This document shows, one piece after another, positions 456 through 63,393 of a stretch of 64,000 nucleotides of DNA (the first letter of the stretch is position 1; each line of letters starts with the position of its first letter). The notes beneath the pieces are model-generated. The model saw nothing but the letters and a program-made list of their open reading frames with translations. It did not search any database and had not been told where the DNA came from. This DNA comes from Micractinium sp. NFX-FRZ (taxonomy: Eukaryota; Chlorophyta; Trebouxiophyceae; Chlorellales; Chlorellaceae), in NCBI GenBank assembly GCA_029339195.1, contig JAPTJF010000211.1, forward strand, positions 37,558-101,557, in the 5' to 3' direction. Both the position numbers and the translations under genes were made by a program.

Positions 456-3400
456 CTGCGGCTTGCCGGAGATGGTCAGCGGGTAGCTGTCCACAAACTT
501 CCAATAGCGGGGGACCTGCCGGGGGTTGGGTTGGGTGGGCAGGTGGGTGAGCAAGCGTGAGGCATTGCCACTACAACACCGCATGGCTTGGACGGTGGGT
601 GGCTGGGTGGGTGAGCAAGCCAGCGTGCGGCACTACGACTGCCCAGTGCCTGCCCACCTTGTAGCGGGGCCACCTGCCCCTTGCACCACCGGCCCCCCGA
701 CCCACCGCCTGCCCAGCTCCCTGCCCACCTTGTAGCGGGCCACCTGCCCCTTGCACCACTCCCGCAGCTCCGCGCGCTTCACTCCCTCAAACCCGTCCCT
801 GCGGGCAGGCGGGCAGGCAGAAGAGAGCAAAAAGTGAATCGGCAGGGAGGGGCAGAGTGGCTTGAGAGGCCAGCACTTTGTCGCTGCTCCGCTCGCCCCA
901 GGCCCTCAACACACGCCCATGGCAGGTGGACAGCAGAGGAGGGTAAGTAGGCGGGCGAGCGAGGGGTGAGGAGGGGCGGAAGGAAGGCAGGCGGCCTGCA
1001 AAAACCAGCTGCCCAGCAGCCACCCGGCAGCCGCCTCGTGCTCACCAGCGTACCGCCCACCCTGCCAGCTCAGCACCACCTCACCGCCCACCCTGCCAGC
1101 TCAGCGCCACCTCACCGCCCACCTGAGCTTGATCCATGCGCACAGCACCTCGCCGTACCGCTGGCTGGGCACGCCAAACACCTGCACGTCTGCCACGGCG
1201 GGGTGGCCGTGCAGGAACTCCTCCACCTCCCTGCAGAGAGAAGGGTTCAGTGCGTGGTAAGGGTGAGGGGGCAACATGTGGGTGTGCCTGCCACAGCCGG
1301 GTGGTCATGGAGGAGCTCCCCTGCCTCCCTGCACCACACAGGAGGAAGGTTGGGTGTGTGCGGTGCGTGCTGGGGTTGAGGGCTTGTGCCTGCCATCGAC
1401 GAAGGTCCTCCACCCCCGCGGCACCCAGGTGCCGTCAAGCTAGGCGCCTCAACTGCACACCAAACACTTGCAAACAACTAGCACCATAAACCACCATAAC
1501 CGACAGCACCCATCATGGATGTCCTCGTCCTCCACACATCCCGGGCAGCTCCCGTCCCTTCATCACCCCGGGCCCACTGCATGCCCGCCTGGAATTGACC
1601 CGCACATCTGTGCACGTGGCCAAAGCGCACAACAACAAGCAGCCGTGCCGGCAGCGCTCACCGCGGGTACATGTTCTCCTCCTGCCCCCCCCCTCCAGGT
1701 GACCACAGCGCATCACAGCAGCGGGCATGCCGCACAGGTGCTCACCGCGGGTAGATGTTCTCCCCCCCCCAGATGACCATGTCCTTGATCCTCCCCACCA
1801 CGTTGCAGTACCCCTGCCCATCAATGGTGGCCAGGTCACCCGTGTGCATCCACCCCTCCTGCACACAAAGGGAGAACAGATGGGTGAGGGTGGGAGGAGA
1901 GGTGGGGTAGGCAGGCGAGGGATGCAGGGAGGCCCAGCCATGCTGTCCCGCACGCACACTCACACACACACACCTGGGCGCAATAGGCGGGCCGTCGTGG
2001 CCGCATCCTCGCGCACAATTGCAGTACCATCGCACTGCCACACACGCATCACCCCTCGATGCGCTGCAGCCCCGGCACCCTGCACACACAAAGCGCACCC
2101 ACACCCACACAGTCGCACCTGGTCAATGACGGCCGCCGTGGCCGCATCGTCACCCCAGTACCCCCGCATCACACTGTAGCCACGCACACACAGCTCTCCC
2201 ACCTGCACCACGGTGGGAGTGGCGGCAGCAGGGTGGCAGTTAGGAAGGATGGGGTCAGTGGCACACAGTCGGCAGGCAGCGGCACGGAGGGTGGCAGTTA
2301 ATAAGGACGGGGTCAGCGGCACACGATGGGCAGGCAGCAGCAGTGAGGGCGGCAGTTGACAACGACAGGGTCGGCGGCGGGGACGGCTCGACAGAGAGGG
2401 GCACTGCCAGTTGCCACGCCCGGCGGCTGCCCCCCACCCCCCACCCCGCCCCCTTACACACAAAACAGGCAAGCTGGGCAGTAGGCCCAGGCCTGAGAGC
2501 AGGCTCTGCCACACATTAACAGTCACAGCCACTCACCGCGCCCAGCGGCAGCGTGCGCCCGTTCCCCGGGTCGATCACTTTGGCCTCGAGGTGGGGGTGG
2601 ATGCGGCCCACTGTGGACACGCGGCGATCCACCGGGTCTGCAGGGGGAGGCAGAGAGATAGAGATTGTCAGACCAACCCACCGTTTCGCTCGAAACTGGA
2701 GGGACGATGGGGGAAGGCACCAGGCGCGTGCAGGCAAGCAGGCGGGCGGGCACAGGGCCACGCAGGGACCCCGCGGCAGAGAGGCCTGCGGCCCGCCCAC
2801 CCGACGTGCAGCCACAATGCGCGCGCACCCACCGTCTGCGCCAGTCTGGAAGGAGACGGGGGAGGTCTCGGTCATGCCGTAACAGATGGTCACGTCACTC
2901 ATGTGCATCTCGGTGCGCACCTGCAGGGCAGGTCGGGAGGAGGAAAGGTAACGGAGGCAAAGAGGAGAGGGAGGGTGAAGGGCGAGGCAGTGATCAAAGG
3001 GCCAGGCGTGCTGCACAGGTGGGCTACAAGGCGGCTTTAAAGGGCAGGGGAGGCTGCAGAAACCTGGAGATGAGGTGCGTGATTACTTGATGCAGAGGAG
3101 GCCAGAGGCGGCAGCACCATGCATTCCTGCCACGCTTGTTTGCGGAGCTCCAGCAACACACCGTCCTGCTGGTACCCATGCCACTGGAAGGGAAACCGGG
3201 GCAACAGCAAGACACCCGCAATGTTCACAGTCAACCCGCCCCACCTTCTTCATGACTTCCACAGGGCAGGTGGACCCTGCCATCACGCCGGTGCGCAGGC
3301 TGTCCAGGCGGTACTGCTTGAAGCTGCAATAAAAAGAGGGTGGGTGGGAGGTTTGGCTGAGTGCGTCTGGACGAGCAGCGATAAGGTGGGGGCCGCAGTC

Positions 3401-6400
3401 TGTCCCCAGCACACGCGCCTGCAAGCGCCCCCACGGGCCACGCCCCACGTGGCACGACTGCTCCCTCACTTGGGCAGCACCAGCTTACTCAGCGACACTT
3501 AGTGCTGGGACGCTGCTGCCTCCCGCGCAGCAATCAACAGGACATGGTTCAGTTCAAACCAACTCACTTGGGCAGCGCCAGCTCAGCGATGAACATGGTG
3601 GGCACGCCGTAGAGCGAGGTGCAGCGCTCGGAGGACACCGCCGCCAGCGTGGCCTCGGGGAAGAAGGATTCTGCCGGGGTGGTGAGAAACAGGGGGGGGG
3701 AGTGTTGCAATTGTTGGTGAGAAACAGCGGGGGGGAGTGTTGCAGTTGTTGGCGAGAAAGTCGACCCAAATGACTTTGCTCCCACTCACCCCACCCACCC
3801 ACCCACGCACCAGCAGGGGACCCCAGGCTGCTTCCAGCAAAGCAACTCAGCCAGCAAGGCTAGCCAATCAACAAGCAACAGTGCATCACCTGCAGGGTAG
3901 ACCATGGCCGCGCCCGAGGTGACGCACGCCGTGTTGCCAATCACCATCCCGAAGCAGTGATAGAGCGGCACAGGGATGCACACCCTGCAGCACAGAAAGG
4001 GGTGGTGCGGGGGTGGCTGATTTGATGGGGCAAGCGTCCAGTGGTGCCCAGTGACTTCAAGAGACAAGTGTGTCCATTTGGTCCCCAGTGACTTGATTAT
4101 GTGAGGAAGCTGGGCAGCCACGCGGCCATCCCACGGCAATGCTGCCAGCACGCCTGTAGTAAATCAGTAAGCGCCAGTGTGCCCAGCGGCGCTCCCCTAT
4201 GCCTACCTGTCGGCCTCTGTGTATCGGCAGGTGCGGGCGATGAAGAGGCCGTTGTTGAGTATGTTGCGGTGGCTCAGGGTGGCCGCCTTGGGCCGGCCCG
4301 TGGTGCCTGCCATGACAGGGGGGCAGGGACGACAATGGGAAGCGATGAGGTGACGTGGGATGAGTTGAGGAGGGCGGGGAGTGATACGACGTGAGCCGGG
4401 TTGAGGTGAGATGAGATGAGATGGGGTCTGTGCCCCGGAGTGTAAGCCAGCCCTGGCGCTGTCGCGGGCGGGGCGGCAACAAGCCGCCGCGGCCGCAGCC
4501 GGTGCGAACCACACGGCACTGCTCGACCTCACGACACTGCTCGTGTAAACCAGTGACACTATGGTACCGTCTACCCAGCCGTGGCACCACAGCAGCACCG
4601 CCACATCACCCACCCGCTCACACACCTGACGTGTACTGGAGGCTGAGGGGGCCGTCGGGCAGCAGCTGCTGACCAGCATGCCACGTCAGCACCGCCACAT
4701 CAGCACTGCCATGTCAGCATCCCACCCGCCCACCTGACGTGTACTGGATGTTGATTGGGTCGTCCGGCAGCAGCTGCGCTTCCCGCTGCCGCAGCTGCGC
4801 CTCCAGCTCCGGTGCGGCGCCGCCCGCCAGCAGCGCCTGCCAGCTCAGGTAGCCTGTGAGGCATGAAGGGTGGGGGCAGGACAGAGGGCAGGAGTGTCAG
4901 GGCAGCAGGCAGGTTGGGAGAGGCGGATTGGAGGCTGCCCGCCAGTAGCGCCTGCCAGCTCAGGTAGCCTGTGAGGCATGAAGGGTGGGGGCAGGACAGA
5001 GGGCAGGAGTGTCAAGGCCTTGAGCAGGTGCAGAGAGCGCAGCCAGAAAGGGGGCAGGCAGCGGCCCCCGGGCACGAGGGATGGGCGGCTTCGGGCAGGC
5101 TGGGGGAGGGCAACAGATGCATGTATCGGAGAACAGGGGTGCCAGGCCATGCAGGGTGTGTGAACAAGCCCAGCCAGGCCAGGCGTCCCCGTGTGGCGCG
5201 GTTATACGCCCCCACCCAGCGCCAGCCTCTACCGCCCACCACCAGCCACCCCTCAGGGCAGCCGCCCTGCCCCACCCGCCCGCCTGCCCACCCACCTTCC
5301 GGCGCGGCGCCGTCGTCGCCCTCACCCTCGCCTGCGCCCAGCACCACGCGATGCCGCAGCTGCGGCGCCTGCTCTGCCACCTCGCTGCTACCTGCCATCT
5401 CCAGAAACTCGGTCCCTCCCCGCAGCCCCGGCGCAAGCACCAGGGTGGTGACGCCTGATTGGGCCAGAGCATACGCCAGCTCAGCAGCCCGGTAGGCGGG
5501 GTTGATGTTGACCTGGCGCCAGACAGGGTGGAGCCGTACAGGGGGCAGGGTTAAACCAGGAGACACTGAGCGATCCTGCGTGCCGCCAGCTCAGCAGCCC
5601 GGTAGGCGGGGGTTGATGCTGATCTGGCGCCGGGGTGACAAGTAGTCTACTCGCACTGAGTTTTGGCCATGCGCGAGGGCATGGGGAACCAGCCCCAAGA
5701 CACATCCTCTGCCCTCCCCCACCGGGAGGCCGCCCAGGAAGGCACCCCGCCCCTGGTGGTGCGGCCCCTCCCACGCCCCGCCTCACCAGAATGGCCCCCA
5801 CTTTGGCTGTTGCAAACTGCAGCACCACCCATTCCACCCGGTTGGGTGCCCAGATGCCCACACGGTCCTCCTTCTGCGGTGGGAGGACGGGAGTGGGCCA
5901 CAAGGCGCACGCATTCATGACCAAAACACACACAGCAAGAGTTTCCTGACAGCAGTGGTTGGGAGCCCAGATGCCAACGCGGTCCTCCTTCTGCCGGGGG
6001 TGGGGGTGGGGCACACGGCCATATAGTATCAGCCACACGAGCATCCACACAGCAAGAGTCTCCGGATCACTGCAGCTGGCAGCCCACGCTGCAGAGCCCA
6101 CGCGGTTCTCCTCCTGCATCTACACGCCCCTCAATCACTCCACTTGCTGGCACACATCCGCATTCTCTTTCACCATACACCACAGTTGCACTCCAGGCTC
6201 ACCTGCACCCCGAGCGCCAGCAGGCCGCGCGCCGCCGCCTCCACCTGCAGGTGGAAAGCGCGCCAGCTCAGCCGCACGCCCTGGTGCAGGCTGACCACAG
6301 CGTCGCTGTCGGGGTAGCTCTGCACGAACGTTTGGTGACAGGGGGCAGGCAGGGGGGTGTTGTTTATGTTGAGCTGTACACCAGGACAAGGTGCAGTTGT

Positions 6401-12914: not shown

Positions 12915-15883
12915 ATGCGGCGGTCGTTTGCTCTGCGGGCGGCGCTGAGCGCGCTGCTGCTGGCGGCACTGTGCCATCACACAGCAGCCGCCGAGTGCGA
13001 TGAGGCATCCGCAGCTGCAGGCAAGCCTGGGCGGCAGATTTTTGTGGTTCCTGCTGCCCGCTGCCGCCGCCACCGCTGCCGCCGCAAGCGTGCCTCTCAC
13101 CACCTGCGCCCCTCCGGCACCCCCTGCAGGCTCCTGCGCGGCCGACGGCTCCGACCTGCCCCAAGAACGGACGCTGAGCCCTGGCGCCAAGTTCAAGGTG
13201 TGTTGATGGAGCGGGGGCCCTGGGCGGCCGGGCGAGGTGGCCTGGGAACCAGTGCCGGCAGGGGGTGTGCACAGACACTTCTGTGCTGCCTGCTGGCACT
13301 GGACGCATATGCCCACCCACACGGAAGACCTCCCGCCAGTGCCCGCATGTGTGCCCTCATATCCTGCCTGTAATATGTCGCGTGCACCAACCATCTCAGA
13401 TTCATGCCCGCCACGGCAAGCACTGCACCGCTCTGCGCTGCGTGCACCCTTGCCCCGGCCATGCACAATCACAGCAACCGACACGGCAAGCTTGCTTGGT
13501 CTTCCTGTTCACTGCCTTCTGCAGTTCAAACATAAGCGGATCCACAACCTGTTTCTGCGTACGCTGCGCTTGACAAAATGCATGTTATCACTAATCCCCA
13601 CTGGCTTGCAACTGCAGCTAGAACGCAAAGTTTGAGCAGAAGTGAGCTTTTGGGTTTAGGATTAGGGTTGTAACCAATAAAACCCTAAAACCCTCGAGGG
13701 CGCGACCTATTTCTGCGTGCTCTGACGTGTCTGGACTCTTGCTCAACCACCCACGTTGCTGCAGTTTGAGCGCAAGTGGATCCGCGACTTTGAGGGCGCG
13801 GTGCTGGCCCTGGACCCCAGCGGCGGCTATGCCTACCTGCTGGAAAAGGAGCGCCAGCGGGTGCAGGCCTTCACCTCGGAGGACGGTGAGCGCCTGCATG
13901 CCAGTCACAAGTGGATTGCACGCTGGTGCAAGTTGACTGCAAGGGGTTGCTTGCCTGGGTGTTGTGGGCAACGCACGGGGCCCTTGACAGGCGCACATGT
14001 GGGCATGTGCGTGTGTTGCGGGCTGCGTTTGCCTGCTGGAGAAGGAGCACCGGCGGGTGCAGGCCTTCACCTCGGAGGACAGACAGCCTCCCCCGGTGCA
14101 CTTTGGTATATTTACGTAGCGCAAGCGGCCAAGGATGCAGTGCCGGCGGGGGCAGGGCAGTGGCGGGACCTGCAGCATGCAGGCCTGCGGTGTGGGTGAG
14201 CGCCAGATGGAGACGCGCTGTCTATGCAAGGGATCCGTGCATGCACGCCGCAGCCCGCTGCCCCGCCTGCCTGCCGCCGCCCTCTGCCCTCACACCACCA
14301 CGCCGCCCCTCTGCACTATCCCATCGTGCAGGCAAGTACATTCTGTCCTGGGGCAAGCAGGGCAGCGGGGAGGGCGAGACGCTGGTGGAGCCTCGGGACC
14401 TGGCTGCTGGGGATGACGGCTCAGTCTACATTGTGGACAAGGTAAGAGTAACCATGGGCACTGATTGAAACAGCCCATCCAGCGTAGGTCTGAGTTTGTA
14501 GTCACTGCTTGCGAGTTGGCGGGTTTGGGTGCACGACGCCTCCGTCTGCATTGTGCACAAGGGTGACAATAACCCTGGGCACTTGTTGCTGTGCCAAATC
14601 ACCCCATGATCGCCCTGGCAATCCTTTGCAGTGTGCTGGTGCGGGGGTAGCTGGGGTGCGGCGTCGCCCTTCAGTACCGGGCGGGCTCTGTCCTCCTATT
14701 CTTAACGCCCCCTTGCTACTCCGCCCGAAATGCAATGTGTTGCCCCCGTGCAGTGCCAAATCAAGAAGTTTGAGCCCGGCACCGGCGACGTGCTGAAGAC
14801 GTGGGGCACCTGCGGCAGCGGCGAGGGCGAGGTGAGGGGCGAACTGCTTGCCTAGAGCGGGCATGTGTCTGTGCTGGCGCGTCGGTGCGCCAGCGCGGGC
14901 GCAAGCTGGGGTGGGGCGGCGCCCGGGCCGCTGCCCCTGCTGCGCATGCTCTCTGCTGCGCTGGCTCGCAACCGTGCATCTCCGCCAGGCGGCCCCACCC
15001 TTCCCCTGCCTCATGACGCTCCCTCGCCCCTTGCTTGACGCGTCCCCTCCCCCCACACAGTTTGTCGACCCCACCGCCATTGCGGCCGACCGCTTTGAGC
15101 GCTGGCTTTACGTGCTGGACGCGGGCGCCAAGCGGGTGCTCAAGGTGGACCCGGAGGGGCAGCTGCTGGCCAGCTGGACCGCTGCTGAGCTGGCGGGCGG
15201 CGTGGGCATTGCGGTGGGCGCCGACGGCGGCGTCTACGTGGCGGATGCCTCCTCGTCTTCCGTGCACAAGTACGACCCCAAGGGCAACCTGATCAAGAGC
15301 TTTGGCAGCAAGGGCAGCGGCGAGGGGCAGGTGCGCGGAGTCAACCGAGGAGGGGGGCTGCTCTCAGGGGGCGTGCTGGGCGGGGGAGGGAATGCAAGCG
15401 ACCGACGGCCAGCTAGCTGATCAAGAGCAAGAGCTCTGGTGGGAGTCGAGGGCAGCGGCAAGGGGCAAGCGCACAGCTGCAGCTGAGGAGCCCCAGGGTG
15501 CATGCCCCACCACCGCTGCACTACACATGCGCGCCGCCACCCCTGCAAGCCTCCCTGCCTCGGAACCATGCCACCCATCCTCCTCATACCTCTCCCACAC
15601 CCATGCATGCCCTGCTTTGCTGCCCTGCCTGCAGTTTGAGTCGGTTGCGGGCATCACGGCGGACACGGAGAACAACGTGTTTGTTCTGGACTCGTCCCTG
15701 GGCCGCGTCCAGGTGTTCACCGAGGAGGGTGCCTACCTGACTTACCTGGGCGCCAAGGGCAGCGGCGAGGGCGAGCTGGCACGCCCCACCTGGGTGGAAA
15801 CCAACAACCTGGGGGATGTGGTGTTTGTGGTTGACGATGGGAAGTTCATCAAGAAGTTTGCGCTGGAGCGTGAGGAGGCGTGA
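12915..15883 (+). CDS. Secreted NHL-repeat beta-propeller protein, 7 exons
   Basis: Exons 12915-13020, 13130-13197, 13765-13885, 14332-14441, 14754-14831, 15061-15330 and 15635-15883 give 333 residues with phases closing. The first intron uses a GC donor (AG|GCAAGC). Residues 1 to about 25 form a signal peptide with a Leu/Ala core. The rest is a series of about 45-residue blades whose ends read G-S-G-E-G-E/Q, alternating with strands such as VYIVDK, LYVLDAGAKRVLKVD and VFVLDSSLGRVQVF. That is the NHL/six-bladed propeller pattern seen in TRIM-NHL and peptidyl-glycine lyase-like proteins. No catalytic domain accompanies it, so the role is probably binding in the secretory path or wall. The ligand is unknown. 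Three of its introns carry exon-edge copies, listed separately. Confidence 0.82.
13519..13635 (+). repeat. Two degenerate copies of acceptor and head of NHL exon 3
   Basis: The real exon opens ctgcag then FERKWIRDF at 13759-13790. Copies at 13519-13552 (ctgcag then FKHKRIHNLF) and 13612-13635 (ctgcag then LERKV) lie upstream in the same intron. Confidence 0.75.
13645..13695. repeat. Telomere-like motif, inverted pair, in an NHL intron
   Basis: Reads gggtttaggattagggtt, then after a short spacer aaaaccctaaaaccc. TTTAGGG is the Chlorella-type telomere unit. It lies between exon-edge copies and the real exon. Confidence 0.7.
14029..14083 (+). repeat. Copy of the end of NHL exon 3
   Basis: Matches 13833-13885 (LLEKERQRVQAFTSED) about 196 bases downstream in the intron, reading LLEKEHRRVQAFTSED. 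The GTGAGC donor is lost. Confidence 0.85.
14531..14587 (+). repeat. Copy of the end of NHL exon 4 plus donor region
   Basis: Matches 14413-14467 (DGSVYIVDK then GTAAGAGTAACC), reading DASVCIVHK with a damaged donor. Confidence 0.8.
15418..15472 (+). repeat. Copy of the end of NHL exon 6 plus donor region
   Basis: Matches 15288-15335 (LIKSFGSKGSGEGQ then GTGCGC). The copy is frameshifted by small insertions. Confidence 0.75.
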
Positions 15884-16499: not shown

Positions 16500-19400
16500 T
16501 TAGAGCCAGAGGAAGTCCTCACGGCGGGTGGTGAGGGCTGCCAGCTGGCGGCGCAGGGCCGCCACCTCACCGCTGAGCGCCTCGTTGCGCTCCAGCACCT
16601 GCCCCACCAGCTGCCCCATGGCTGCCTGCTGCGCCTGCAAGGTGGGCGGGGAGGCGGAGGGAAAGGGCTCAGAATGTGATGGGAAGCGAGCCGGAAGCGC
16701 AAGAAAGCAACCAGCAAGTCCCCACAAATGCCGTGTGTGCCACACCTGGCATGCTGCCCTGCCCCAAGGCCCTACTACATAAGAACCACTGCATTCAGGC
16801 TGCCGCTTGCCACGTGCTGCTTGCCCCGTACTGCTGCTTGCAAGCTGCCTGCACCACACACACGGCACCTGCATTGTGCGGGTCACATCATGCTGCCTGC
16901 CTGCCCCGCTTGCCTGGAACTGGGTGATCATGTCGAGGTGCATGGCCAGCAGGTCGTCCCGCAGCGCCTGCTGCGCATCCACAGCATGCCCAGCAGTGCC
17001 TGGCGCCGGCGCAGCACTCGGCTCGCCCGCCACCTGGCACACGCCCGACACAGCGGTGGCCCAGGCCGCGCCGCTGCAGCCAAGCACCTCGGCGCTGCGC
17101 TGCGCCGCTGCAAAACTGAAGTCACCGGAGGTGCCTGCTGCTGCTGGCGTTCGCTGCTGCTGCTGCTGCTGCTGTGCTGCTGCTGCTGCTGGCGCCTGGA
17201 AGGCCGCTGGGCTGGCGGCGTCCCCCGAGGGCAGGGCGCCAATGGACCACGGTTGCTGGAAGCCGCCAGAGGCAGTGGGGGCCAGGCTGGCAGGTGCCAC
17301 ATCTGCATCTGCCACTGCCGCCGCCTTGATCTTGCGGGCGCCTGCCAGCCCCGCCTCCTCAGCTGCTGCTGCTGCTGTGGTGGCGGAGCCTGCAAACTGG
17401 CCCATGTGCTGCTGCTGCTGCTGCCGCTCCTGCTGCTGCCTGCTGGCGACCGAGGGCGGTGCCACAGCCGGCGACGGCAACGGCAGCGGCAGGTTCTCTG
17501 CAAAAGAAGGCGACGCCTGCACTGCCGGGTACATCTCCTGGTCACCTGCTGGCGGCAGCGGCGAAGCTAGCCCTGGCAGCATGCACCGCTCCGCCGCTGC
17601 AAAACTGCTGCTAAAGCCGCGGCCGCTGCTGCCAAAGTTTGGAGAGCGCTCCCCCAGCACGCTGCGCTGCTGGCGGGAGGCGGGCGCTGCCGCTGGCGCT
17701 GCCGCGGCGGCCATGCCGGGCAGCGGGCTGATACACAGCTCAGGCGCGGTGCCGCTGCTGTGACTGCGATCCACGCCTGCCAAGCTGCCGTTGCTGAGCG
17801 GGCTGATGTCCAGCGGCAGGGGCGGCGCCGGCGCAGCCAGACCCGCCTGCCTGGCGCTGTGTGCTGCTGCCAGGGCGGCCTGACGCCCTGCGGGCGGCGC
17901 CACCAGAGGGGTAACATCCAGCGCCAGCGGGGCAGCTGCCAGCAGCTCCAGCGGCGACTCTGGAACCGCTGCTGAGGTGGCCGCAGCAGTTGCTGTGCTC
18001 ATGCCGCGGCCTGCGCCACCAAGCGCACTGAGAGGAGTGATGCTCAGCTGCTGCAGGCGCTGGTCTGCCTCCCGGACATCAATGTCAGACACACCCGGCT
18101 GCCGCTGGGTGGCCGCAGGGGTGATATCGCCGCTCGCGGCAACTGCTGGTGCACGCCCATAGCGCGGCGCCACCCCCATCAGCGGCGTGACAGCCAGCGG
18201 GGCAAAGGTGCTGGGAGGCGCAGCTGCTGGTGTGGCTGCAGCGGGGCGCGGCGGGGGCGGCGCCGCCGTATTGCCAGCTGCGCCGCCTGCTGCCTGTGCG
18301 CTGTGGCTCCTCTGCAGCAAGGGTGCTGCTGCTGCCGCTGCGGTTGCTGCGCCTGTTGCCTCCCCGCCTCCTGGGGTGGCAGCACGAGAGGCTGGAGCCG
18401 ACACAGAAGCGCGGCGGTCGGCTGCACCTACAAGAGACAGGGTGTGTGCATAACCAGTGAGCATGCTTGCCAATCAGAAACTTGCTGTGCAGATCGAGGC
18501 AGCAAGAACACGGGCTGCCTCCTGAAATAGAAGCTTATTGCTGTGCAGAGCGAGCGCCAACAGGTGTCAGCGGGCCGGCAAATGGACATCATCACAACAA
18601 GTGCACGGCTCAGCACAGCAGCACTGGCTGTGGCAGTGGCAAGCAAGCTACACGACTGGCTCCCTCGCTCACCTGATGCTGGCGCTGCCACCCCCGCTCC
18701 GCTGCCTGCTGCCATGGTGCCTGCCGCAGGCGTGGCCCCCCGAGCTGCGGGGATGCGCGAGCCAATGGAGGCAGCCGCCGCTACAGAGGGTGCAGCTGCT
18801 TCCAAAGAGGCAGCTTGAGATGGTGCCACGCCTGCTGCAGGCTGGCTGCTTTGCGGGGCAGGGGCACCCGTGGCGGCAGCTGCTCCGGGGGCGGCACGGT
18901 GCCGTGCGCCCAGAGTGGTGTAGCGGTGCTGCCAGTGCAGCCCGGTGACTGGCTGGCCGTCAGGAAAGCGGATGGAGTGCAGCGGCTGGCGTGTGTTGCG
19001 GGGGTCGTACAGTCGCACAACGCCGTCTGCATAGCACAGCATAGCGCAGCACAGAGCAACTGAGCCTGGCAGCCCCAGTGAAAGCAGCAAGCAGCCAGGA
19101 TGGCCAAGTAGCAGGCCAGAGAAAGGGCGGCAGTGCAGCCGTCGGCGCGCCACCTCACACCATTCCACCTGATGCCTCTGACAAGTGGCCCCCCGGTCGG
19201 CACAACACCCCAGCTGCTGCCAGCCCTGCACCCTTGCTGTGCCTGCACCCAGCAGCCTACCACCTGCCCTGCAACGAGCTGTGGCTGCCTGCCCTGCACA
19301 CCTGCTGTGCCCACCCCCAGCAGCGTGTGGTCCTCCTTCACCATCAGCGCAGTAGCGGGAGCCCCCACAGAGATGGCAGCTACGCGGCCAGGCCCGGCAT

Positions 19401-22832: not shown

Positions 22833-22863
<31 letters not shown>

Positions 22864-53233: not shown

Positions 53234-53295
53234 CGCGTACATGAAGAGCGGGCGCCGCCAGGCTGGCGCCAGCAAAGGCCAGCCAACGCTCAGGC

Positions 53296-55503
53296 TCATA
53301 ACGCTCTACTTGTGCTGCTGGTACTGCTGGGGCTGCCATCAAACCGAAACTGTGACGTCATGTTGAGCTGCACGGAGTTCTGCTTCTGCTTGTGGTACCG
53401 CGGCGACTCCTCCTCGCGCCTGCACCAGTTGGCAGCACGGAAACACATATCAATGGGATACTGCTAGAAGGAATATAAAATGCGTACAGAGTTGTGCTCC
53501 TCTCCTCGCGGCACAGTCGAGACTCTTTCGCGCGCATGCAACGTGCATCACATAGAAATGCGAGGATGCTGCCACAGAAGGCGCGCCCCCGCACAGTGAT
53601 CCTCACGGAACAGAGGCCTTTCCTTCCAATTCCTTCTCCCCTCCCTGCCCGGCGGCGGCACATCTGCTGTGCACTAGTGTGGATGCGGAAGCCTCCAGTT
53701 GCTCAGGCGCCCTCAAGGAACCTCCCTTAGTTCCCCCCAAGGGCAGCAGCAGTGCTCAATGACCGCGACAACAGCTCGGCAGCATCCCTGCAATATGCAC
53801 TTACCTACAGCAGAAGTTGGTGGTGATGTGCTCCATGCGCTTGTTGAATTGCTGCGCTGCGGTGGTGTCCTGGAACCCCGCGTACGCTCGTGCCACGTCA
53901 CCCACTCCCTCGAAGCTCAGCCGCCACACTTTGAACCTCTTGTACGGCGCCAGCAGCGGTAGCAGCCGGGCGTCGGTGAGCGCCGGAGGTACCAGCAGCA
54001 CCAGGCTGACGCCGGGCGGCTTCTTGGCAGCTTCCTTCACGCAGTCGCTGCATTCGAGCGCTGCCGACGGCTGGATGAGCAGCACAGACTCCTGCAGGTG
54101 CGCGGGTGCGGCAGCGAAACCATGCTGATGTGGATGCACTTGTTCAGTGGGCAGGCAGGCTGGCTGGCAGGCTGGCAGATTACAAGCACTCTTATGCTGG
54201 TTAGGCGGGCAGGCGAGCAAGAAGGCAATCAGGCAGGCAGGCAGGCAGGCAAGCATGCGACGTCGCTTGAACCAGAGGACTGACTGCAGCGCCATGCAGC
54301 AATCCATGCCGAGCAGGGCAGGCAGGCAGCTGGGGAAGGCGCACACCCCGGTCGAGCCAGCCAGCCAGGCACTGCCCCAGAACCTTGCCCTTTGCCGGCG
54401 TGCGTCCCTCTCCAAAACAGGTGGCCCTCCTCAGCCACCCACCCCGCCTGGCCTGCCCACCTCCCCTCCCCCTCCCTGCCAACAAGCTACGCTCACCTTG
54501 CCCATCCCTCCCATTTCAGCCACCACAGAACCCACCCGCCCACCTTGACCTCTGCCGGCGTGCGCTCGTTGTCCAGGAATGAGGACTCCCGGATGGGGAC
54601 CAGGGTGCCCTGGCCATCGTCGTCGTAGTGGCCCGGCTGGAACAGGTAGTCCTGGGGGCTGCGGGGCAGGGCAGGGAGGCACGCAGGCGGAACAGTGTTA
54701 GAAATCGTGCTTCGGCTGTGCCTTGCTTTGCGGGGTCGCTGTGGCGCTAAGCCGGCCCCTGGAAAGCTGCAAGTGCCGCCACGGGCTAGGCTGCCAGGCG
54801 TCCCCCCCGCACTTCCCAGTTCCCCGCTCTTGCATACAGGCCGCGGCATGCACTGGGCCTCGGCTGTGCGGCAGCTGCACACCCCCAACCCTGCCAGACC
54901 CAAGCCTGAAAGTCCCCCCCCCCCCCCCACCCCCACCCCACCCCGCATTCCCGCATCCCCGCCCCCACCACCCACCCGCCCACCCACCGCCACCCCCACA
55001 CACATGTTTCCATCTCCCCCAGCCTCACCATGGCACGGGCAGCGGCATGTCCTGCGCCTCGGCGGTGCGGCAGCGCACCACGCTGTACCAAATCTTCTCG
55101 CAGTAGCACACAAACTGCGGGGTGGGGTGGAAGCAGGGGCGGGGGAGGCAGGGTCTGGTCTGACAGCGCAGCAAGCAAAGGCAACTTGCACAGCTAGACA
55201 GATGCTACTAATTCTTCCGGCAGCGGCACACACCGTGGGCGCGCGCAAGCGGCGGACTGCGCCATGCCCACAGCGCGTGCACTGCGTCAGAAGGATAGCA
55301 ACCAGCAGCTTACCTTTGGAAGCATGAAGGCGCGGCCGGCGGCGGCTGCCAGGGCCATGCCCACATATGCCTGCTGCAGCTGGTGGTGGATCGTGTCCAG
55401 GTGGAAGGAAATCAGGTCCTCGTTTTCGTTCCACTTGTTGAAGTCCTTCGGGGGCTGCGGGCAGTTGGGAGGATGAGATGGTGTGTGTGTGTGTGTGGTG
55501 GTG

Positions 55504-55540
<37 letters not shown>

Positions 55541-58500
55541 AGGGCAGGTGGAAGAAAGGGGAAGGTGGAAAGAAATCAGGTGCTCGTTCTCGTTTCGCTT
55601 GTTGAGGTCCTTGGGGGGCTGTGCGTAGGATGAGAGAGGAGGGGGCGGAGGGAAGCCGGGTGGACACAAGTGAGAGAAGGTATCAAGAAGCGCGGAACAA
55701 GATACCTCTGGCTTCAGCAGGCCCGCCGGCATCCCAGCACCCACGTGCCAGCACCAGCCCACATGATTAGCAGTACCTCATGCCTATCAGCTGCAAGCCC
55801 GCACACTGGCCCAGCACCCACGCGCCAGCACCCACCAGCCGTGCCTCACATGCAGCCGCCCTGCAGGTTTGCCAGCATGCCCAGCACCCAAGTGCCAGCA
55901 CCCACCAGGTCCGCCCACATGCCCGCCAGCACCCACCGGCGATACATCATGTCTAGCAGCTGCAGATCCGCCCACATGCCCAGCACCCACGTGCCAGCAC
56001 CCACATGCGGTACCAGCAATCCCTCACCTCTGGCAGCAGCAGGCCCGCCCACCCGCCCGGCACCCACATGCCAGCACCCACCAGCAGTACCTCGCCTCTA
56101 CCGCCTGCATCCCCCCAGCCCACGTGCCACAGCAACTAGCAGCAGTACCATCAGTACCTCACCTGTGGCAGCTGCAGGTCCACTGTGACCAGGGAGGCGT
56201 TGGAGTAGTACTCTGGCGGGTCCACCCACAGGCCCATGTCCCGCAGGCGCGAGCGCTTGCCGGGGATGCCGTTGTAGGTCCATGTCATGTGGACGACGTA
56301 CGGGTCAACCTTCTTGACCTGCGCTTCATGGTGGTTGAAACACGCACGGGGACGACGTACCAATCAGAGTTGCTGACCTGCACTTGTTTTGAATGCATTG
56401 GACGATGCAGGGGTGGATCCTGTCGACCTGCGCATGGTGGCAACACATGTGCTTGGGAGTGGCTGTGCCCTCCCCTTGTAGGAATCCGCTTTGCAGCACT
56501 GTCCTCAGTGCAGGCCCTTCATGTGGTCATGGAGAAAGAGGTGATGCAAGAGAAGACAGCAGCGTTGTGTGCCATGCAATCGTGCAGGGGAAGCGCCCCA
56601 CCCACCTCGTGCTCCGAGAGCGGCGCGGCGGCCGTCACTCCCACGTGCCATGTGCCACACAACCAAGCCAGAGAAGGAAAGACACACAAGCTCTCCCACC
56701 CACCTTGTGCAGCTGCTGCAGGAAGGAGGAGTGCGCGCTCTGGGCGATGCTGCAGCAGCAGGGGCGGGCAGTGCGGGCAGGGCATGCCAGGTGCCTTCTT
56801 TAATAAGTGAGGCAGCCAGCTGTGCATTGCAGGCGCCTGCAAAAAGCTCAAGCAGCTGCTGCGGCGGCGGCAGCAGCGCCGGCCGAAGCAGCAATGGCAG
56901 CAGCACCCCACACCTCCCCTCCTCACAACAACAGCCCACCCACCAGTGGCCAGGAGCGCAACCACACACGTTGGTACAGTGCATGCGCTACCTCTCCTAA
57001 CAAGCACACACCCCTGCCCTCCCCTTGTACGTAAGCACCACCTGCCAGGCAGGATGACCCATGCCGGTGTTGCACTCCCACAAGCTCAACACCTTGCCAC
57101 CACACCTACAGCCCACCCTGACCCCCTGCCCCCCGCACACGATGCGGCGGCACCCACCTGGCGGGCAGCACCCCCATCCAGATCTTGTCTCCCCACGTGC
57201 CCACAACTCGCGGGTCGGACGGGTGACGCGTCACCATGCCCTGCACACCAAGCAGATGGCAGCGCGAATGCGCAGGGTTGAGGAAGCCAGCAGGAAGTCA
57301 GGGCCAAGCACCAGGCAGGTACCGCACCAAAAGGCACGGTCGGCCCAGCACATGCAGGGTGGGTGGCTGGCGCACGCAAGGGTGTGCGACCGAGGGTACT
57401 GAACGAATTAGAGGCGGTGTGTCCTGCCCACATCCCACATATGGGTGGCGGGTGCTGTGAAGCACGCTCCGCAAGATTTGAGCGCGTATGCATACACGCA
57501 CGTTGCAAGCGGTGGGGGCTGTGGGGCTGCTTGGCCCCGCCTGCAGGAGGGCGGCGCCAGGGCGGCCTCCTCGCCCCCCCGGTCACATGCACATACCGCC
57601 CAGCACACACCTGCCTTGCACACCCCCACCTCTGTTCATTCATCTATCTCTACGTGGACTCTCTCTCTGTACCTAGGCCTACCCCATGATACTCTGCTCC
57701 GACTCTCCCTCACTCCTCACTCCCTGGCCTCCACGCTGGCTCCCTGCCAGCTCAGCTCCCCAAACGCCGGCACCCCGCCAGCTGTCCTGCGCTCACCGTG
57801 GAGCGCGTCATTTCGTAGGAGCAGACTTGGTCGTGCCCCTTGCACTGGTCGTAATAGGCTTTATAGGCGTGCGCCCACTCCCGCACGGCAGCACTGTTGC
57901 GGATCAGGTACACACCTACAAAGGATGGTGGGCGGGAATGAAGAGCCACACAGTTGGGAGGCAACCGAGAGCCAAAGGGAGAACTGTCTCTGTGACACTG
58001 TGGGCAAGATGTGAGGCTGGGATGATGATGTGGTGCGCCTCTGAGCCGGAGTGGGAGCAGCGTGTGCTATGGACCCACCTCCTAGTCACCCAGCCGCCCA
58101 CCCCTTCAACCCACCCACCCACCCCATGCACCACGCACCAGTGTTGTAGCTGTAGTGCGGGGAGGCGGTGGCCTCCAGCCCCCCATCGCCAACCTCGTTG
58201 TGCGAGGAGGTGCCGTCATGGCTGAAAATCAGGTCTGCACGGAGGGAGAGGTAGCACATCAGGCTGTGGTTGGGGCGTGGGGGGGTGGGGCTGAAGCTCA
58301 GGTATGCATGGAGGGGGGGATAGCACAGCCGGTTGTGTGAGGGCGGGGGTGGCGGTCTCACGCGGGTCGGGACCTTGCTGCCAGAGCCGGCGCCATCGCG
58401 GCTCACGTTGAGCTGTGCTGGGGTTGGGAGGGGCGGCAGGTAACGGAAGGGCACGGGGCGTGCCACAACACGTGGTTACACAAGCCATGATGCTGCCGCC

Positions 58501-60097
58501 GTGATTCGTACGCGAACCAATGTGGGCCGTGCAAAGGGTCAGGTTCATGCAAGCGAGGAGATGGGGTGCAGGCTGAGGCATGGGTGGGACACCACCGATG
58601 CCCTCAACATGACCCACAGCCACAGCCAGTGAGGGGCGGGGGCCACCTGCGGCACCGTGCCCCCCTGTACATAGCAGCATGGCGCCCTGAACCCCACCAC
58701 GGAAAACTGGAGCAGAGATCACACCTGCGGCAGCGTGCGCCTCGTACAGCGGCATGGGGTCCTTGAACCACACCACGTCCAGGTCAGACACCACCAGGTT
58801 GAACCCCCAGTCAATGACCGCATCCACCAGAAACACCTTGCTCCAGGTCATGCGGCGCCAGCCCTCCTGGCCCCACTGCAGGCCTGAGGAAGCAGGGGAG
58901 GGGAGGCGGGCACATTGGCTGCTTGATAAAGCCCTGCCATGGTGCCACAGGCACGTGTCAGGAGCACCTTGCTCCGGGAGGTGAGGCGCCAGGGCTCCTG
59001 GCCCCGGGCGGAAGCCGGGAGGCGTGCGGGTGTTTCAGCCCAGGTCAGTCTGGCACCAGCACAGGACTGCCTGCATCTAGTCCCAGCTGCAGTTCCTCTC
59101 ACCCGGCTGTCGGAACCCTCAGCACCCAGCAAGCGCCCGACCTGCACGCACACCACTATGTGGCGCCGCACTCCACCTCTTGCCCAAATTCCACACAGCT
59201 TCCACCCAGCGCCTCCCTTTTGCAAGCCTGTGGGTTTCCTCACCAATTCGCGCACAGCATGGCTACCGCATCGCCTTTCCCCAGCACCCAAAAAACTCAC
59301 GGCCCACTTGCAGCTTCTGCCTACCAGCGCCCACAGACCATGCGCCCCACTTGCATCTGTTCCATACAAGCCTCCCCTCACCCAGCCCTCACCCAGCTTC
59401 TGCGTCTCCTCATCAATCCTCTCGAAGCAGGGCTCCCCCATCGCCGCCAGCTTGTGGGAGGTGGGCACGTCGGTGGCTGCCACCACGTAATAGTCGATCC
59501 CCGCTTTCAGCACGTGGTGCCGCCAGTTCATCCCAAAGTCCCACTGCGCCTCGTTCATCTGCAGTTCACGAGCCGAGAGTCGAGAGGCGGTCAAACAGAA
59601 GCACGCATCGTTCCACTCGGCGCGCGGGGCCCGCCGCGGCCAGGCATGCAGGAAAGCTGGCACGGGCTGGCCTAGGGGGGCAACAGTGTGGATGTTAGGC
59701 AGGTATGCACCTGTCCACTTGCAGGGCAGGGCATCAGTCTGGACGTTGGGCAGGCATGCAGGCAGGCGGCGGCAGGAGGCGGCAGGCCACACGGCCAGGC
59801 ATTGCCCGTCCCACCCACCACAGCCAGCATGACGGTGTTGTTGTGTGCCCTTCTGTCCAGGATGTCCTTTGTCAGCGCCGGGCAACGCTTGCCGCCTGCC
59901 TCTGCACCCTGAGCATCCGCCTGAAGCTGCCGCCCGGCGCCGCCGCTGCTGCCACCGCCGCTGCCTCCAAGCACTGCTGCCGTGCCGCTGGCCGCCCGCC
60001 GCCCCCCAGGCAACAATCCGTGGGATGCGGCATCGCTGCAAGCTGCCAGGGCGGCGAGCAGGGTTGCCACGAGCCCAAAGGCCCAGTGGCGCGACAT
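53296..60097 (-). CDS. XEG113-like GT77 arabinosyltransferase-type protein, 13 exons
   Basis: Plant XEG113 adds arabinose to hydroxyproline-rich wall proteins in the Golgi. Exons (minus order): 60097-59819, 59558-59393, 58883-58725, 58234-58139, 57915-57797, 57240-57158, 56749-56704, 56318-56163, 55454-55314, 55114-55029, 54658-54544, 54091-53805, 53419-53296. Every phase closes, for 618 residues. Residues 1-21 are a signal peptide or anchor. The donor-sugar DxD motif lies in VVSDLDVVWFKDPMPLY (Asp182 and Asp184). Later blocks VDPYVVHMTWTYNGIPGKRS and MGLWVDPPEYYSNASL match the order and wording of XEG113. A C-terminal domain (from PPKDFNKWNENEDLISFH) follows. It is shared with the divergent neighbour at 60376, 278 bp away. 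Acceptor specificity in an alga is inferred only. Confidence 0.86.
54383..54432 (-). repeat. Copy of the end of GT77 exon 11 plus donor
   Basis: Resembles 54542-54590 (exon end ERTPAEVK), 159 bases further into the intron. Confidence 0.65.
54839..54882 (-). repeat. Copy of the end of GT77 exon 10
   Basis: Matches 55028-55075 (RCRTAEAQDMPLPV), reading SCRTAEAQCMPRPV. Confidence 0.85.
55482..55538. repeat. (GT)n followed by a 34-base poly-G run
   Basis: A GT microsatellite then an unbroken G run at 55505-55538. It lies between the real acceptor of GT77 exon 9 and its intronic copy. Confidence 0.95.
55565..55620 (-). repeat. Copy of acceptor and head of GT77 exon 9
   Basis: The real head PPKDFNKWNENEDLISFHL (55400-55454) recurs as PPKDLNKRNENEHLISFHL about 165 bases upstream in the transcript. 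Confidence 0.92.
55690..56160 (-). repeat. Minisatellite built on the end of GT77 exon 8 plus donor
   Basis: The real exon end and donor (plus-strand reading gtacctcacctgtggcagctgcaggtcc, 56154-56181) is echoed at least five times across this intron, separated by cagcacccacgtgccagcaccc spacer blocks of variable length. Confidence 0.75.
56328..56440 (-). repeat. Two further copies of acceptor and head of GT77 exon 8
   Basis: The real head VKKVDPYVVH (acceptor at 56318/56319) recurs as VSNSDWYVVP (about 56350-56385) and VDRIHPCIVQ (about 56400-56432), each after a gcag acceptor. Confidence 0.85.
58270..58440 (-). repeat. Two further copies of acceptor and head of GT77 exon 4
   Basis: The real edge reads CYLSLRADLIFSHDGTSSH across the acceptor. 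Copies read CYPPLHAYLSFSPT and LNVSRDGAGSGSKV upstream in the same intron. Confidence 0.8.
58643..58700 (-). repeat. Copy of the end of GT77 exon 3 plus donor region
   Basis: Resembles 58721-58780 (FKDPMPLYEAHAAA) about 78 bases further into the intron. Confidence 0.7.
58930..59005 (-). repeat. Copy of acceptor and head of GT77 exon 3
   Basis: The real head QEGWRRMTWSKVFLVD (58820-58875) recurs as QEPWRLTSRSKVLLTR upstream in the intron. Confidence 0.82.
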
Positions 60098-60375: not shown

Positions 60376-63300
60376 ATGGCCGTTGCACGGCCGCTGCGGA
60401 CCACCGGCAGGCGGAGGCAGACCGGCTGGCTGCAGGTCGCAGTGTTTGCGGTGCTGGCGGTGGTCGGCGGCACGGCGCTCTGGACCAGCCTGCAGTATAG
60501 CGAGGCGCATGCAGCGGCACGCGCCAATGCTGGCAAGGTGAGGCGATGGGTGTACACGTGCGCAGGGGCAGCAGGCTTGAATGACTTATGTCATTGTTCA
60601 TGTTCTACACGTGACTTTCCGCTGCCGCTGCTGCTGCCAGCGGGTGGCGGGCACCGGCAGGCCCTGCCGCTTGCGTTTCGTAGCAGCACAGCATGCTGAC
60701 TGTCTGCTTGTGCGAGCGTTGCTGCCTTGCAGGACACAAAGGATGTCAAGGTGGGAGTAGTAGCAGAGGAGCAGCAGCCTCAGAAGCAGGCGGTTGACGG
60801 CGGGAAGGGTGGCAGCGGGAAGGCTGACCCGTCCGCCAACCTGGCAGCCTGGACCGAGCTTACCACCCTGCCAGGCGGCGACAGCAGCAGTAGCAGCGAA
60901 GGCAGCAGCAGCACTGCCAGCAGCGCAACCGAAAACAAGCAGCAGCAGGCGGAGCAGCTAGCGGACAAGCCGGCAGACAAGCCGGCAGATAAGCCGGCGG
61001 AGGCGCAGCAGGGGGCTGGCGGTGCCGACGCTGGGACGGGCAGCAGTAGCAGCAGCGGCACGGCAACTGCGCAGGCCGCCGGTGCTGCCGGCTACTTCAC
61101 TGTGGAGCTGCGGGTGCCTAAGGTGGGGTGCAGGGAAATAGAGTAGATAGTGGGCTGTTAGGGAGGGAGGGAGGGAGGTAGCCAGGCATTGTGCGCCGCT
61201 TTCAAATTGCAGGCGCCTACAGCCCAGACAGCTGGCTGGGTGCTGGCCGAGCGATGGTGTTCATCCGGGATGCACCCTTACAACCGCGTCTGCCAACCAT
61301 AGCGCCGTTGTTGGCAGTTAGGGTAACCACCCCCGCAGGCGCCTGCCACCTACAAGAGCTGGGTGCTGCCAGCCATGGGACCTGTCACTAACAACCCCTT
61401 GCGTCTGTCTGCATCAATATCAGGGCATCCTCACTTCACACCGCCGGCGCCCGCCACCACCCCCAGCCCACCCAACTCTGCCACCGTCAATCACCGCAGG
61501 TCCCTGCCACCTACAACAGCTGGGTGCTGGCCGAGGACATGCTGCTGTTCAACCGGCGAGCGCTGCAGCAGCAGCTGGAGCAGGTGTATGTGGCGCTGGG
61601 CATGGCGGCCACAGCGGGGCGCACCTTCATCCTGCCAGAGGTGATATCTGGCCCTGCAGAGTGCCCCTTGGTTTGTTGAGGGGTGTTTTCTTTCCTTCCT
61701 GCCAGTGGTAGGCGCTGGCCCGCAGCGCTCCTGGCTCCTCCTGAGCAGCAAGGGGGCCCTCCCAAACTTGGCAACACACAAGCGCATCATCTGTCCCCTC
61801 ACCCCTCCCCCGCAGCTCTCCTGCTTCTGCCTCAACAACAAGGCACCCCTGTTCACACATGTGACTCGAAACTCCCCATCTGTCCCCTGCCCCCACCCAC
61901 CCGCAGCTCTCCTGCTTCTGCCAGAACAGCGAGACGCCGCTGCCGCGCTGCCGCCGCCCCGACGCCTCCGCCTTGCAGTTCCCGGCGCCCTGCCCGCTGG
62001 CAGAGGTGCTGCAGCCGCTCGAGAAGTTTGCGTCGCCGGCTGACAAGGCGGCGGGCATGCCCCTCTCGGTGCTGCCCCACGAGTCGCTGCGCAGCCTGGA
62101 GCTGGACGAGGTGGGCGTTGCCATTTGTGTTTCGTTCTGTTTGGTTTTCTCAAGTTTCACGTGCAGCCTGGTGCTGCGCATGCTGTGCTGTTGATGTGCT
62201 GTGCATGATGTGCTATGCTGCCTTAACTATGATTGGGTGTTTTAGGGGGTTGCGGTTGTCGAGGCTTGTGAGGGCGTGTCATGTTGAAGCCTCAGTGTTG
62301 ATGCGTGTGCAGGTAATCAAGTTCCTTGAAACCATCCTGTGCCTTCCCTCCCCAAGTCCCTTCCTTTGCCCCGCCTCCCTACCCCATGCACTTCTGCACC
62401 CTTCCCTTGCCCGAGTGTGTACCTCGGTGCATCGCTGCGCCCGCCACCACGCCCACCTGACCTCCCCCCCCTTCCCACCTCCCCCACCCCACGCCTTGCC
62501 CCCGCAGAGCAAGGTGCTCGTTGTGAAGCCGTCCGCCACCGTCCTGTGGCCCGCCTGCACCCAGCCACACCCCGACCCTAACATCAAGCTGTCGTGCACC
62601 GAGGAGAGCGCGCTGCCAGGTGGCGCCACCCAGCTCATCGTCCCGCCCTCCCTCAACGACACCCACCTCCTGCCCCTCCTGGAGCCCTACCAGCGCAAGT
62701 TCCCGCTGTGGAGGCTGGACCTCTCCGACATTGGCAGCCACTGGCACGCGTACCAGGGCTGGGACTGCGCCGGTGAGCTTGCGCCTGCGGGTGCGGACGT
62801 TTCCAGGGGGTCAGGGCAGGCGCACGGGTTGGTGCAGGGGAGCAGCCGAGTGTGTGCGGGTGAGCGGGCACCAGCGGGGCATGGGACTCCGAATGGGAGT
62901 TGATGGCTGCAGGGGCGGGGTTGAGGACAGGGAGAAGCCAAAGGTAGCCGGAGCTGGTGGTGCACGGCAGGCTGCCCGCCGGCTGCTGCTTGTTGCACGG
63001 CGTGCGGGCTGCAGCGCTGCCCACCGCCGATGCCGGCAGCCGTGCCCGCCCGTCTCCCTCTGCCCGCTACACCTCTCACTTTTTTCCCACTGGCCGACCC
63101 CGGCCTCCCTCTTGTCCCCACATTTTCCACCGCCACACTCGTGAAAGGCCCGCCTGCCTTCCCGCTCCGCCAACCTGCCTGCAGAGCCTGCCCACCGGTA
63201 CGACCTGCGCATGCGCGGCGCCGCCAAGCCCTGGCCGGTGCCCTCCGGAGGCGGCATGCAGGCCATGAACATGACCACCGGCCGCATCTACTCGGATGAA

Positions 63301-63393
63301 CCAGACATGAAGGACTGCCCTGGAGGGAAGGTGGCAGCGCTGCGGCGCCTGCAGGCGGGCGCGATGGCGGCGGAGAGCGTCGCGGCTGTTTGA
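60376..63393 (+). CDS. Type II membrane protein sharing the GT77 partner's C-terminal domain, 6 exons
   Basis: Exons 60376-60537, 60733-61122, 61500-61640, 61907-62110, 62508-62772, 63185-63393 close in phase to 456 residues. One membrane helix near the start (about 18-37, LQVAVFAVLAVVGGTALW) follows a basic cytoplasmic stub. A Ser/Gln/Lys-rich stalk with DKPADKPADKPAE repeats comes next. The lumenal domain aligns with the end of the GT77 gene next door. Both have a 47-codon, phase 0-0 exon ending AAAAGRAFMLPK there and MAATAGRTFILPE here. Both continue with a Cys-rich exon ending PVPCPQDYLFQP versus PAPCPLAEVLQP. Both then have PPALTDARLLPLLAPYKRFK versus PPSLNDTHLLPLLEPYQRKF. The DxD glycosyltransferase domain is missing. 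It may be an accessory or partner protein of the secretory pathway; no direct function can be read. Confidence 0.8.
61211..61385 (+). repeat. Two upstream copies of acceptor and head of exon 3 of the GT77 partner
   Basis: The real edge at 61498-61560 reads cag then VPATYNSWVLAEDMLLFNRR. Copies begin at 61211 (gcag then GAYSPDSWLGAGRAMVFIR) and 61338 (cag then GACHLQELGAAS, the same bases in a shifted frame). Confidence 0.88.
61719..61855 (+). repeat. Two upstream copies of acceptor and head of exon 4 of the GT77 partner
   Basis: The real edge at 61901-61945 reads cgcag then LSCFCQNSETPLP. A close copy at 61810 reads cgcag then LSCFCLNNKAPLF, and a weaker one at 61722 reads cgcag then RSWLLLSSKGALP. 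Confidence 0.88.

Follow-up and report, generated by a model that had tools for sequence, protein, structure and literature searches.

Copies of exon edges inside the adjoining introns of a Micractinium alga, and a possible origin in short tandem duplications

New intron sequence is usually attributed to transposons or chance insertions. A review of intron gain lists seven proposed routes, which include tandem genomic duplication and the repair of breaks with short direct repeats (PMC3443670). The closest described case comes from potato: a single duplication across an intron-exon boundary carried a branch site, a polypyrimidine tract and an acceptor, and produced a new intron (PMC4974935). 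Here we analyse a 64,000-nucleotide stretch of contig JAPTJF010000211.1 of the green alga Micractinium sp. NFX-FRZ (the window), in which the edges of exons recur, together with their splice sites, inside the introns next to them. These copies are real, are present in every region that we sampled and are informative on intron growth. We think it somewhat more probable than all alternatives together that they arose by recurrent tandem duplication of whole splice-site modules, meaning an exon edge with its flanking intron, and this is the best explanation we have for them.

Frequency and anatomy of the copies

The material consisted of the window and ten 20-kb samples from ten other contigs, 264 kb in total from a 66-Mb genome of 838 contigs. 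A purpose-built two-strand gene finder trained on these 264 kb converged on 491 introns with a median length of 248.5 nt and clear donor and TGCAG acceptor signals. The window holds 11 gene models and 96 introns, with the deacetylase and NHL genes merged in one model. Five of the six window models submitted to Pfam gave matches (AMP-binding, NHL, CPP1-like, diflavin domains and nucleotide-sugar transferase), and the Pfam search with the GT77 partner returned none. For two window genes, the best named protein relatives belong first to Micractinium tetrahymenae and then to Chlorella and other Micractinium species.

An ungapped search compared the 40 exon nt beside each junction, splice site excluded, with the adjoining intron, and low-complexity repeats were removed from the counts. 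At 17 or more matches in 20, the exon edge recurs at 39 of 491 donors and 23 of 491 acceptors, compared with 1/491 and 1/491 for unrelated exon edges and 0/171 and 1/170 for exon interiors. The first-pass annotation of the window had proposed, as a comparison set in advance, that introns should match their own exon edges more often than exon interiors or unrelated exons, and this is what we find. With 16 matches in 20 the counts rise to 49 donors and 38 acceptors, against 9 and 2 for unrelated edges and 3/171 and 1/170 for interiors. A gapped test covered 915 of the 982 junction sides, the others having an edge or intron that was too short. It detected 69 at a score of at least 18 where 1.3 were expected, and 127 at a score of at least 14 where 18.8 were expected, which means that a copy can be detected at about one in eight or nine junction sides. 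At score 18 these fall in 61 of the 491 introns. Copies are present in all ten samples, which extends to other contigs the earlier suggestion of mixed-age copies at existing junctions.

Within the window, a gapped search of 70-nt exon edges against the adjoining intron (score of at least 16, after four predicted exons had been dropped) gave 29 copies in 24 of 96 introns and 7 of 11 gene models, and edges of other window exons gave 2.0. The annotation had estimated some 25 loci, spread over seven or more of twelve genes. More generally, local direct repeats at distances of 20-600 nt number 281, versus 7.7 in shuffled sequence (score 18). The coverage of repeats with a partner in the adjoining intron is maximal on the exon edge, where the last 15 exon bases are covered in 8.3% of introns, and reaches zero about 90 nt into the exon. 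Inverted copies are nearly absent (1/491 donors, 0/491 acceptors), which rules out inverted or hairpin-based copying, and copies of the edge of the exon one further away were found in 0 of 450 cases.

The two copies stand close together and in direct orientation. Junction-anchored lags, searched from 60 to 240 nt, are most frequent at 110-120, and 53 of the 69 gapped matches have lags of 90-150 (the test sees little below 80). The first-pass annotation had given offsets of about 60-200 bases; the distribution is peaked and not flat. The median lag of 123 compares with a median length of copy-bearing introns of 342 nt (all introns of at least 150 nt) or 370 nt (at least 200 nt), and lag and copy length are uncorrelated (r=-0.01, 30 pairs). 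In pairs that are at least 80% identical, the copy usually takes in 14-60 nt of exon and 1-10 nt of intron. The splice sites were copied along, as had been claimed: among copies whose alignment reaches to within 1 nt of the junction, 11 of 18 still have the GT and 12 of 17 the AG, with 4-5% expected by chance. This retention does not differ from 0.74, the squared block identity, and the inner splice site decays like the remainder of the copy, with no excess conservation.

Some introns hold two or three copies, such as GT77-partner intron 61123-61499 with lags of 161 and 284. A GT77 paralogue on another contig (G000:C769, locus L032) likewise has introns with copies of their own exon edges, two of them with three-copy donor arrays at spacings of 89-113 nt. 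By eye, intron 10322-10586 of sample L008_L009 contains serial copies of the acceptor and exon start, with spacers that match out of order, which suggests repeated duplication within an array. In the same sample, at 7304-7717, 95 nt at 89% identity are common to two adjacent predicted introns around a predicted 12-nt exon; this is probably one intron in which a young junction duplication was misread as a microexon. A larger repeat, 158 nt at 93% identity, is shared by intron 239-740 of sample L010_L011 and the second intron after it, and exceeds the junction copies in size. Overall, the copies have diverged to many different degrees. Young ones include 5584-5622 and 61342-61368 in the window and those in L010_L011 intron 3427-3955 and L014_L015 intron 14531-14936.

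One explanation is that the copies are functional decoys: selection would maintain them as rival splice-site modules through which splicing or intron retention is tuned. The narrow lag window, the exon-derived part that outlasts the flanking intron and the junction-like composition described below are all compatible with this. However, the GT and AG disappear at about the pace of the surrounding block, the lags are spread evenly over the reading frames (mod 3 counts of 25/25/23), mismatch rates are nearly even over codon positions (0.158, 0.165 and 0.197), and no copy was detected in 32 introns of four genes. We therefore regard functional decoys as improbable. The frame and codon-level constraint expected of alternative or mutually exclusive exon ends is likewise missing from the copies.

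The pattern could also be an artefact, with coding repeats split by false introns or with local mis-assembly. Because copies imitate exons, gene models needed checking. We compared the ACSF2 and GT77 models with relatives' proteins; the other models and about 395 sample introns stand as predicted, and statistics on the 264 kb were computed on uncorrected models. At least three false exons were called in the window, at least one and probably two of them being an exon-edge copy. Predicted exon 4626-4665 of ACSF2 was dropped as a donor-side copy that relatives' proteins lack. Without it, the model goes out of frame if the donor stays at 4726; moving the donor to 4734, at a distance of 108 nt from the copied donor 4626, restores an open frame and agreement with the relatives. 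The corrected protein aligns with that of M. tetrahymenae without gaps around 14 of 17 junctions, 4307-4733 included. It departs from this at the first junction by one residue, at 4854-5295 by six residues that are additional here, and at the last, where the model stops short. In GT77, all 12 junctions align without gaps with the closest relative once two false exons, 55906-55959 and 57502-57540, are removed after comparison with relatives' proteins. A fourth predicted exon, 61816-61860 in the GT77 partner, was dropped solely on its resemblance to the next exon start. Against an artefact, the relatives' proteins support the models of ACSF2 and GT77, which together account for 19 of the 29 copies in the window, and exon-exon repeats are in frame in 51 of 57 cases, unlike the junction pairs. 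These frame counts and relatives' proteins rule out the coding-repeat version, and the many degrees of divergence are unlike mis-assembly. An artefact of either kind is thus very improbable.

Duplication of splice-site modules and competing explanations

The duplication that we favour would be short, local and in tandem, with a unit of mostly 90-150 bp that straddles the exon-intron junction. The module doubled in this way would consist of an exon edge, mostly of 15-60 nt, with its splice site and about 50-100 nt of the intron beyond it. Of the two copies, the one closer to the exon would stay in use and leave the protein unchanged, while the other would become intronic and decay, and the intron would be longer. 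Each relic pair would have begun as a single tandem duplication. Short units may have been removed by selection, with the decoy too close or the module incomplete, and the intron half would be hidden if, as we presume, native intron changes at several times the rate of the exon-derived copy. The outer site would be the one spliced, and relatives' proteins support this for two genes, ACSF2 and GT77.

If a unit of 90-150 bp across the junction was duplicated, the intron half should be duplicated too. We could assess this half in 65 and 61 of the 73 ungapped pairs and in 66 of the 69 gapped pairs. It is alignable at p<0.05 in 22 of the 66 gapped pairs, with about 3 expected by chance (19/61 in an earlier set), and some tandem units are nearly complete. 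The clearest tandem in the window is the ACSF2 copy 4934..4968, where 69 nt of intron and 35 nt of exon are duplicated out of a unit of 115. Composition points the same way. In the 20 nt beyond the copied splice site, acceptor copies have a mean pyrimidine fraction of 0.647 versus 0.550 at an equal distance in length-matched introns (n=30, p=0.0012), and donor copies a G+T fraction of 0.626 versus 0.524 (n=37, p=0.0003). The same junction-like composition is found in the 41 pairs without a detectable match (p=0.023 and 0.014). Its persistence where the match is gone therefore favours duplication of the whole splice-site module.

Exon interiors fit as well. In 171 tests of exon windows lying 70-140 nt from the donor, one gave a match in the adjoining intron; such matches would be rare if duplications survive where they leave the exon intact. 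Repeats with lags of 90-150 nt also occur inside introns, in a test with greater sensitivity above 90 nt. Intron-internal repeats cover most of their unit more often than junction pairs do, and duplication of this kind appears to act within introns as well. Lags of 60-80 nt are found in 3 of 68 exon-anchored pairs versus 13 of 35 intron-anchored ones (about 5/35 by chance; p=4e-5), as if splicing acted as a filter against these lags at junctions.

A competing possibility is junction-anchored copying, in which a block of 20-60 nt ending at the splice-site core is pasted about 110 nt away without the DNA in between. Candidate routes are template switching where splice motifs offer short homology and repair in which a staggered break is filled in with filler DNA. 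In favour of junction-anchored copying, homology mostly stops within about 10 nt inside the intron, the exon-selected (68) and intron-selected (35) repeat pairs are nearly separate, with 4-6 shared, and the unit is spanned in 0 of 7 of the youngest junction pairs and in 1 of 5 young intron-internal pairs. It does not predict the junction-flank composition beyond the copied splice site, seen even without a match, or the intron half carried by a third of the pairs, and the inverted copies that templated repair should also yield are confined to the single donor case in 491 and none in 491 acceptors. We judge it unlikely, though it deserves more weight than any other single mechanism set against duplication. 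Only slightly less probable is a splice-site-anchored process, tied to splice signals or transcription, that repeatedly pastes blocks of 20-60 nt about 110 nt into introns; if true, it would have made nearly half of the long introns imitate their own exon edges.

The copies could also be remnants of introners, mobile introns with long target-site duplications. The layout of copy, spacer and copy resembles an insertion between such duplications, and 12 of the 69 spacers match elsewhere in the 264 kb. However, only 14 of 491 introns show a cross-intron match, each with one partner, and no intron family emerges. Genome-wide searches with two spacer-holding stretches gave, among the 39 candidates scored for each, few matches at E<=1e-15 and none over the checked spacers, and neither stretch has a near-identical copy elsewhere in the genome. 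The lag also fails to grow with block length. We consider introners highly unlikely.

Intron length bears on the claim that a process at junctions lengthens introns. Edge copies occur in 2 of 74 introns of 150-200 nt and in 24 of 56 introns of 400-700 nt; compared with 18 of 268 at 150-300 nt, the latter enrichment is strong (p=2e-10). The data support the enrichment of long introns in copies but do not single out junctions as the site of the process, as repeats of similar lag lie inside introns too.

Several observations weigh against uniform neutral duplication of whole modules. Introns without copies have a median of 242 nt, and copy-bearing introns have one of 205 after subtraction of the lags or 289 after subtraction of the blocks, so intron length fits neither the whole unit nor the block alone. 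We simulated neutral tandem duplications with an indel rate taken from the exon blocks and a slow exon. The simulated intron half is alignable in 78% of detected pairs, compared with the observed 33%, and in 91% of pairs at least 85% identical, where 12 of 31 are observed. A span of at least 0.8 of the unit is predicted for 71% of junction pairs and seen in 18 of 76 (24%); for the youngest pairs (at least 90% identical) the prediction is 96% and the observation 0 of 7. Intron-internal repeats at lags of 75-170 reach this span in 20 of 38 cases, also short of the predicted 85%. When the copy decays at 0.33 of the intron rate, the simulated values drop to 43% for the intron half (63% in pairs at least 85% identical) and 44% for the span (82% in the youngest), still above those observed. 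The ratio of edge to intron-window matches is 2.1, where a uniform process gives 0.97-1.10, and that of the edge to the first 70 nt of the intron is 2.7, where 0.77-0.83 is predicted. Over all lags, moreover, intron-intron repeats are commonest at 20-80 nt and not at 110.

Tandem duplication followed only by neutral decay, even with the exon evolving slowly, is thus insufficient for the loss of the intron half and for the edge excess. If exon-derived sequence is assumed to decay at 0.4 of the native intron rate, the simulated edge ratio becomes 2.24, and slower decay can account for much of the two- to three-fold excess. Native intron flanks are G/T-rich or C/T-rich, and slippage could make them change quickly. 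Either the turnover of native intron exceeds that of exon-derived sequence several-fold, or the copying is partly junction-anchored. Because the length comparison and the slow-copy simulations fit less well, our confidence in module duplication is slightly lowered. Most likely a known type of mutation is seen here with unusual clarity, together with an excess at exon edges.

Distribution over the genes of the window

Copies in the window are listed in Table 1. ACSF2 holds 11 and GT77 8, followed by NHL with 4 (none in the deacetylase half of the merged model) and the GT77 partner with 3; the CPP1-like gene (a marginal 22-nt match), the WD40 gene and one unnamed gene have one each. At a score of at least 16 there are none in RWP-RK (0/6 introns), diflavin (0/8) and AP2 (0/12). 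The first-pass annotation had named ACSF2, NHL, AP2, GT77 and the GT77 partner as dense in copies, which holds for all except AP2, where one intron contains intron-intron repeats. It had found none in RWP-RK, as we do, and doubtful ones in the CPP1-like, diflavin and deacetylase genes; of these three, the CPP1-like gene alone has a match here, the marginal one.

The distribution is uneven: 0 of 32 introns in AP2, RWP-RK, diflavin and one unnamed gene carry a copy, versus 24 of 64 elsewhere (p=1e-5). By eye, three of these four genes look like low-complexity proteins, in which constraint on exon edges may be weaker. This does not explain the lack of copies in diflavin, which is conserved and not of low complexity.

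Table 1 Exon-edge copies in the introns of the window. Donor-side copies repeat the end of the upstream exon and acceptor-side copies the start of the downstream exon; positions and lags in nt.
Gene	Intron	Side	Copy	Strand	Lag	Identity	Remarks
ACSF2	516-728	donor	658..689	-	71	100%	31 columns
ACSF2	799-1122	acceptor	882..918	-	120	78%	weak, score 17
ACSF2	1231-1745	donor	1662..1705	-	84	91%	GTGAGC kept
ACSF2	1231-1745	acceptor	1288..1328	-	98	78%	TGCAG kept
ACSF2	1859-2118	donor	1990..2045	-	141	88%	
ACSF2	3324-3567	donor	3470..3513	-	98	87%	weak, score 16.5
ACSF2	4307-4733	donor	4623..4669	-	108	87%	called exon 4626-4665, absent from relatives' proteins
ACSF2	4854-5295	donor	5188..5256	-	111	77%	weak, score 17
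ACSF2	4854-5295	acceptor	4934..4968	-	115	94%	
ACSF2	5513-5786	acceptor	5584..5622	-	111	97%	38 columns; intron half undetectable (p 0.23)
ACSF2	5874-6202	acceptor	5957..5990	-	117	91%	intron half homologous too
NHL	13886-14331	donor	14021..14080	+	196	87%	60 columns
NHL	13886-14331	acceptor	14169..14217	+	178	69%	weak
NHL	14442-14753	donor	14508..14561	+	120	74%	
NHL	15331-15634	donor	15425..15467	+	138	85%	
WD40 gene	19027-19301	donor	19235..19256	-	68		marginal, score 16
Unnamed gene	39519-39757	acceptor	39556..39603	-	104	83%	
CPP1-like	42289-42498	donor	42429..42450	+	188		marginal, score 16
GT77	53420-53804	acceptor	53486..53535	-	116	73%	
GT77	54092-54543	donor	54384..54414	-	160	84%	
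GT77	54659-55028	donor	54836..54880	-	199	86%	
GT77	55115-55313	donor	55238..55272	-	91	94%	
GT77	55455-56162	acceptor	55563..55618	-	164	88%	56 columns
GT77	58235-58724	donor	58647..58701	-	78	87%	
GT77	58884-59392	donor	59225..59275	-	170	75%	
GT77	58884-59392	acceptor	58959..59005	-	131	81%	
GT77 partner	61123-61499	acceptor	61342..61368	+	161	96%	
GT77 partner	61123-61499	acceptor	61235..61268	+	284	88%	second copy
GT77 partner	61641-61906	acceptor	61816..61851	+	91	81%	called exon, dropped by resemblance only

Two further features of these genes were seen. In GT77 intron 54092-54543, about 100 nt at 54147-54259 have matches of 71-97% elsewhere in the genome, in at least 44 rows; this is probably a CTGCCTGC-type minisatellite of an intron. 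Below its algal matches, the ACSF2-like protein (47-7143) has its best-scoring relatives, among the best 120 of 8000 scored candidates, mostly in metagenomic fatty-acyl-CoA synthases (64-68% identity), of which two carry the label Actinomycetes. A bacterial origin of this gene in Chlorellaceae would fit these matches.

Relation to described routes of intron change

If the duplications occurred as proposed, a considerable part of the long introns can be traced to the neighbouring exon, in units of a characteristic size, and one genome would suffice to measure how intron sequence and decoy splice sites arise and decay. Annotations of such algae may contain false short exons, because copies can look like exons; one or two were so called here. 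In titles and abstract openings of the open-licence literature we found no account of junction-spanning duplications as a genome-wide source of intron length.

Gao and Lynch are said to have found in 2009 that internal gene duplications are ubiquitous. The units here differ in being about 110 nt, in straddling single junctions and in surviving mostly as decayed intronic relics.

The described routes of intron gain share features with the window. In gain by double-strand break repair, direct repeats flank unrelated DNA, as they do here, but the repeats in Micractinium are mostly 20-60 nt, end at splice sites and lie at existing introns (PMC3443670). The Rogers model likewise combines tandem duplication with a choice of splice site that leaves the protein unchanged; its source is an exonic AGGT, whereas the source here is a real junction and the lag is not the intron length (PMC4974935, PMC3443670). 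The AGGT route, which the first-pass annotation had taken as its starting point, is not needed, as no new intron was made. The potato case is the closest, since there too a tandem duplication across an intron-exon boundary carried a splice site and exon edge. In potato the outcome was a new intron in one gene, whereas in Micractinium existing introns appear to have been lengthened, at many junctions, at donors as well as acceptors, and by units of one size class (PMC4974935).

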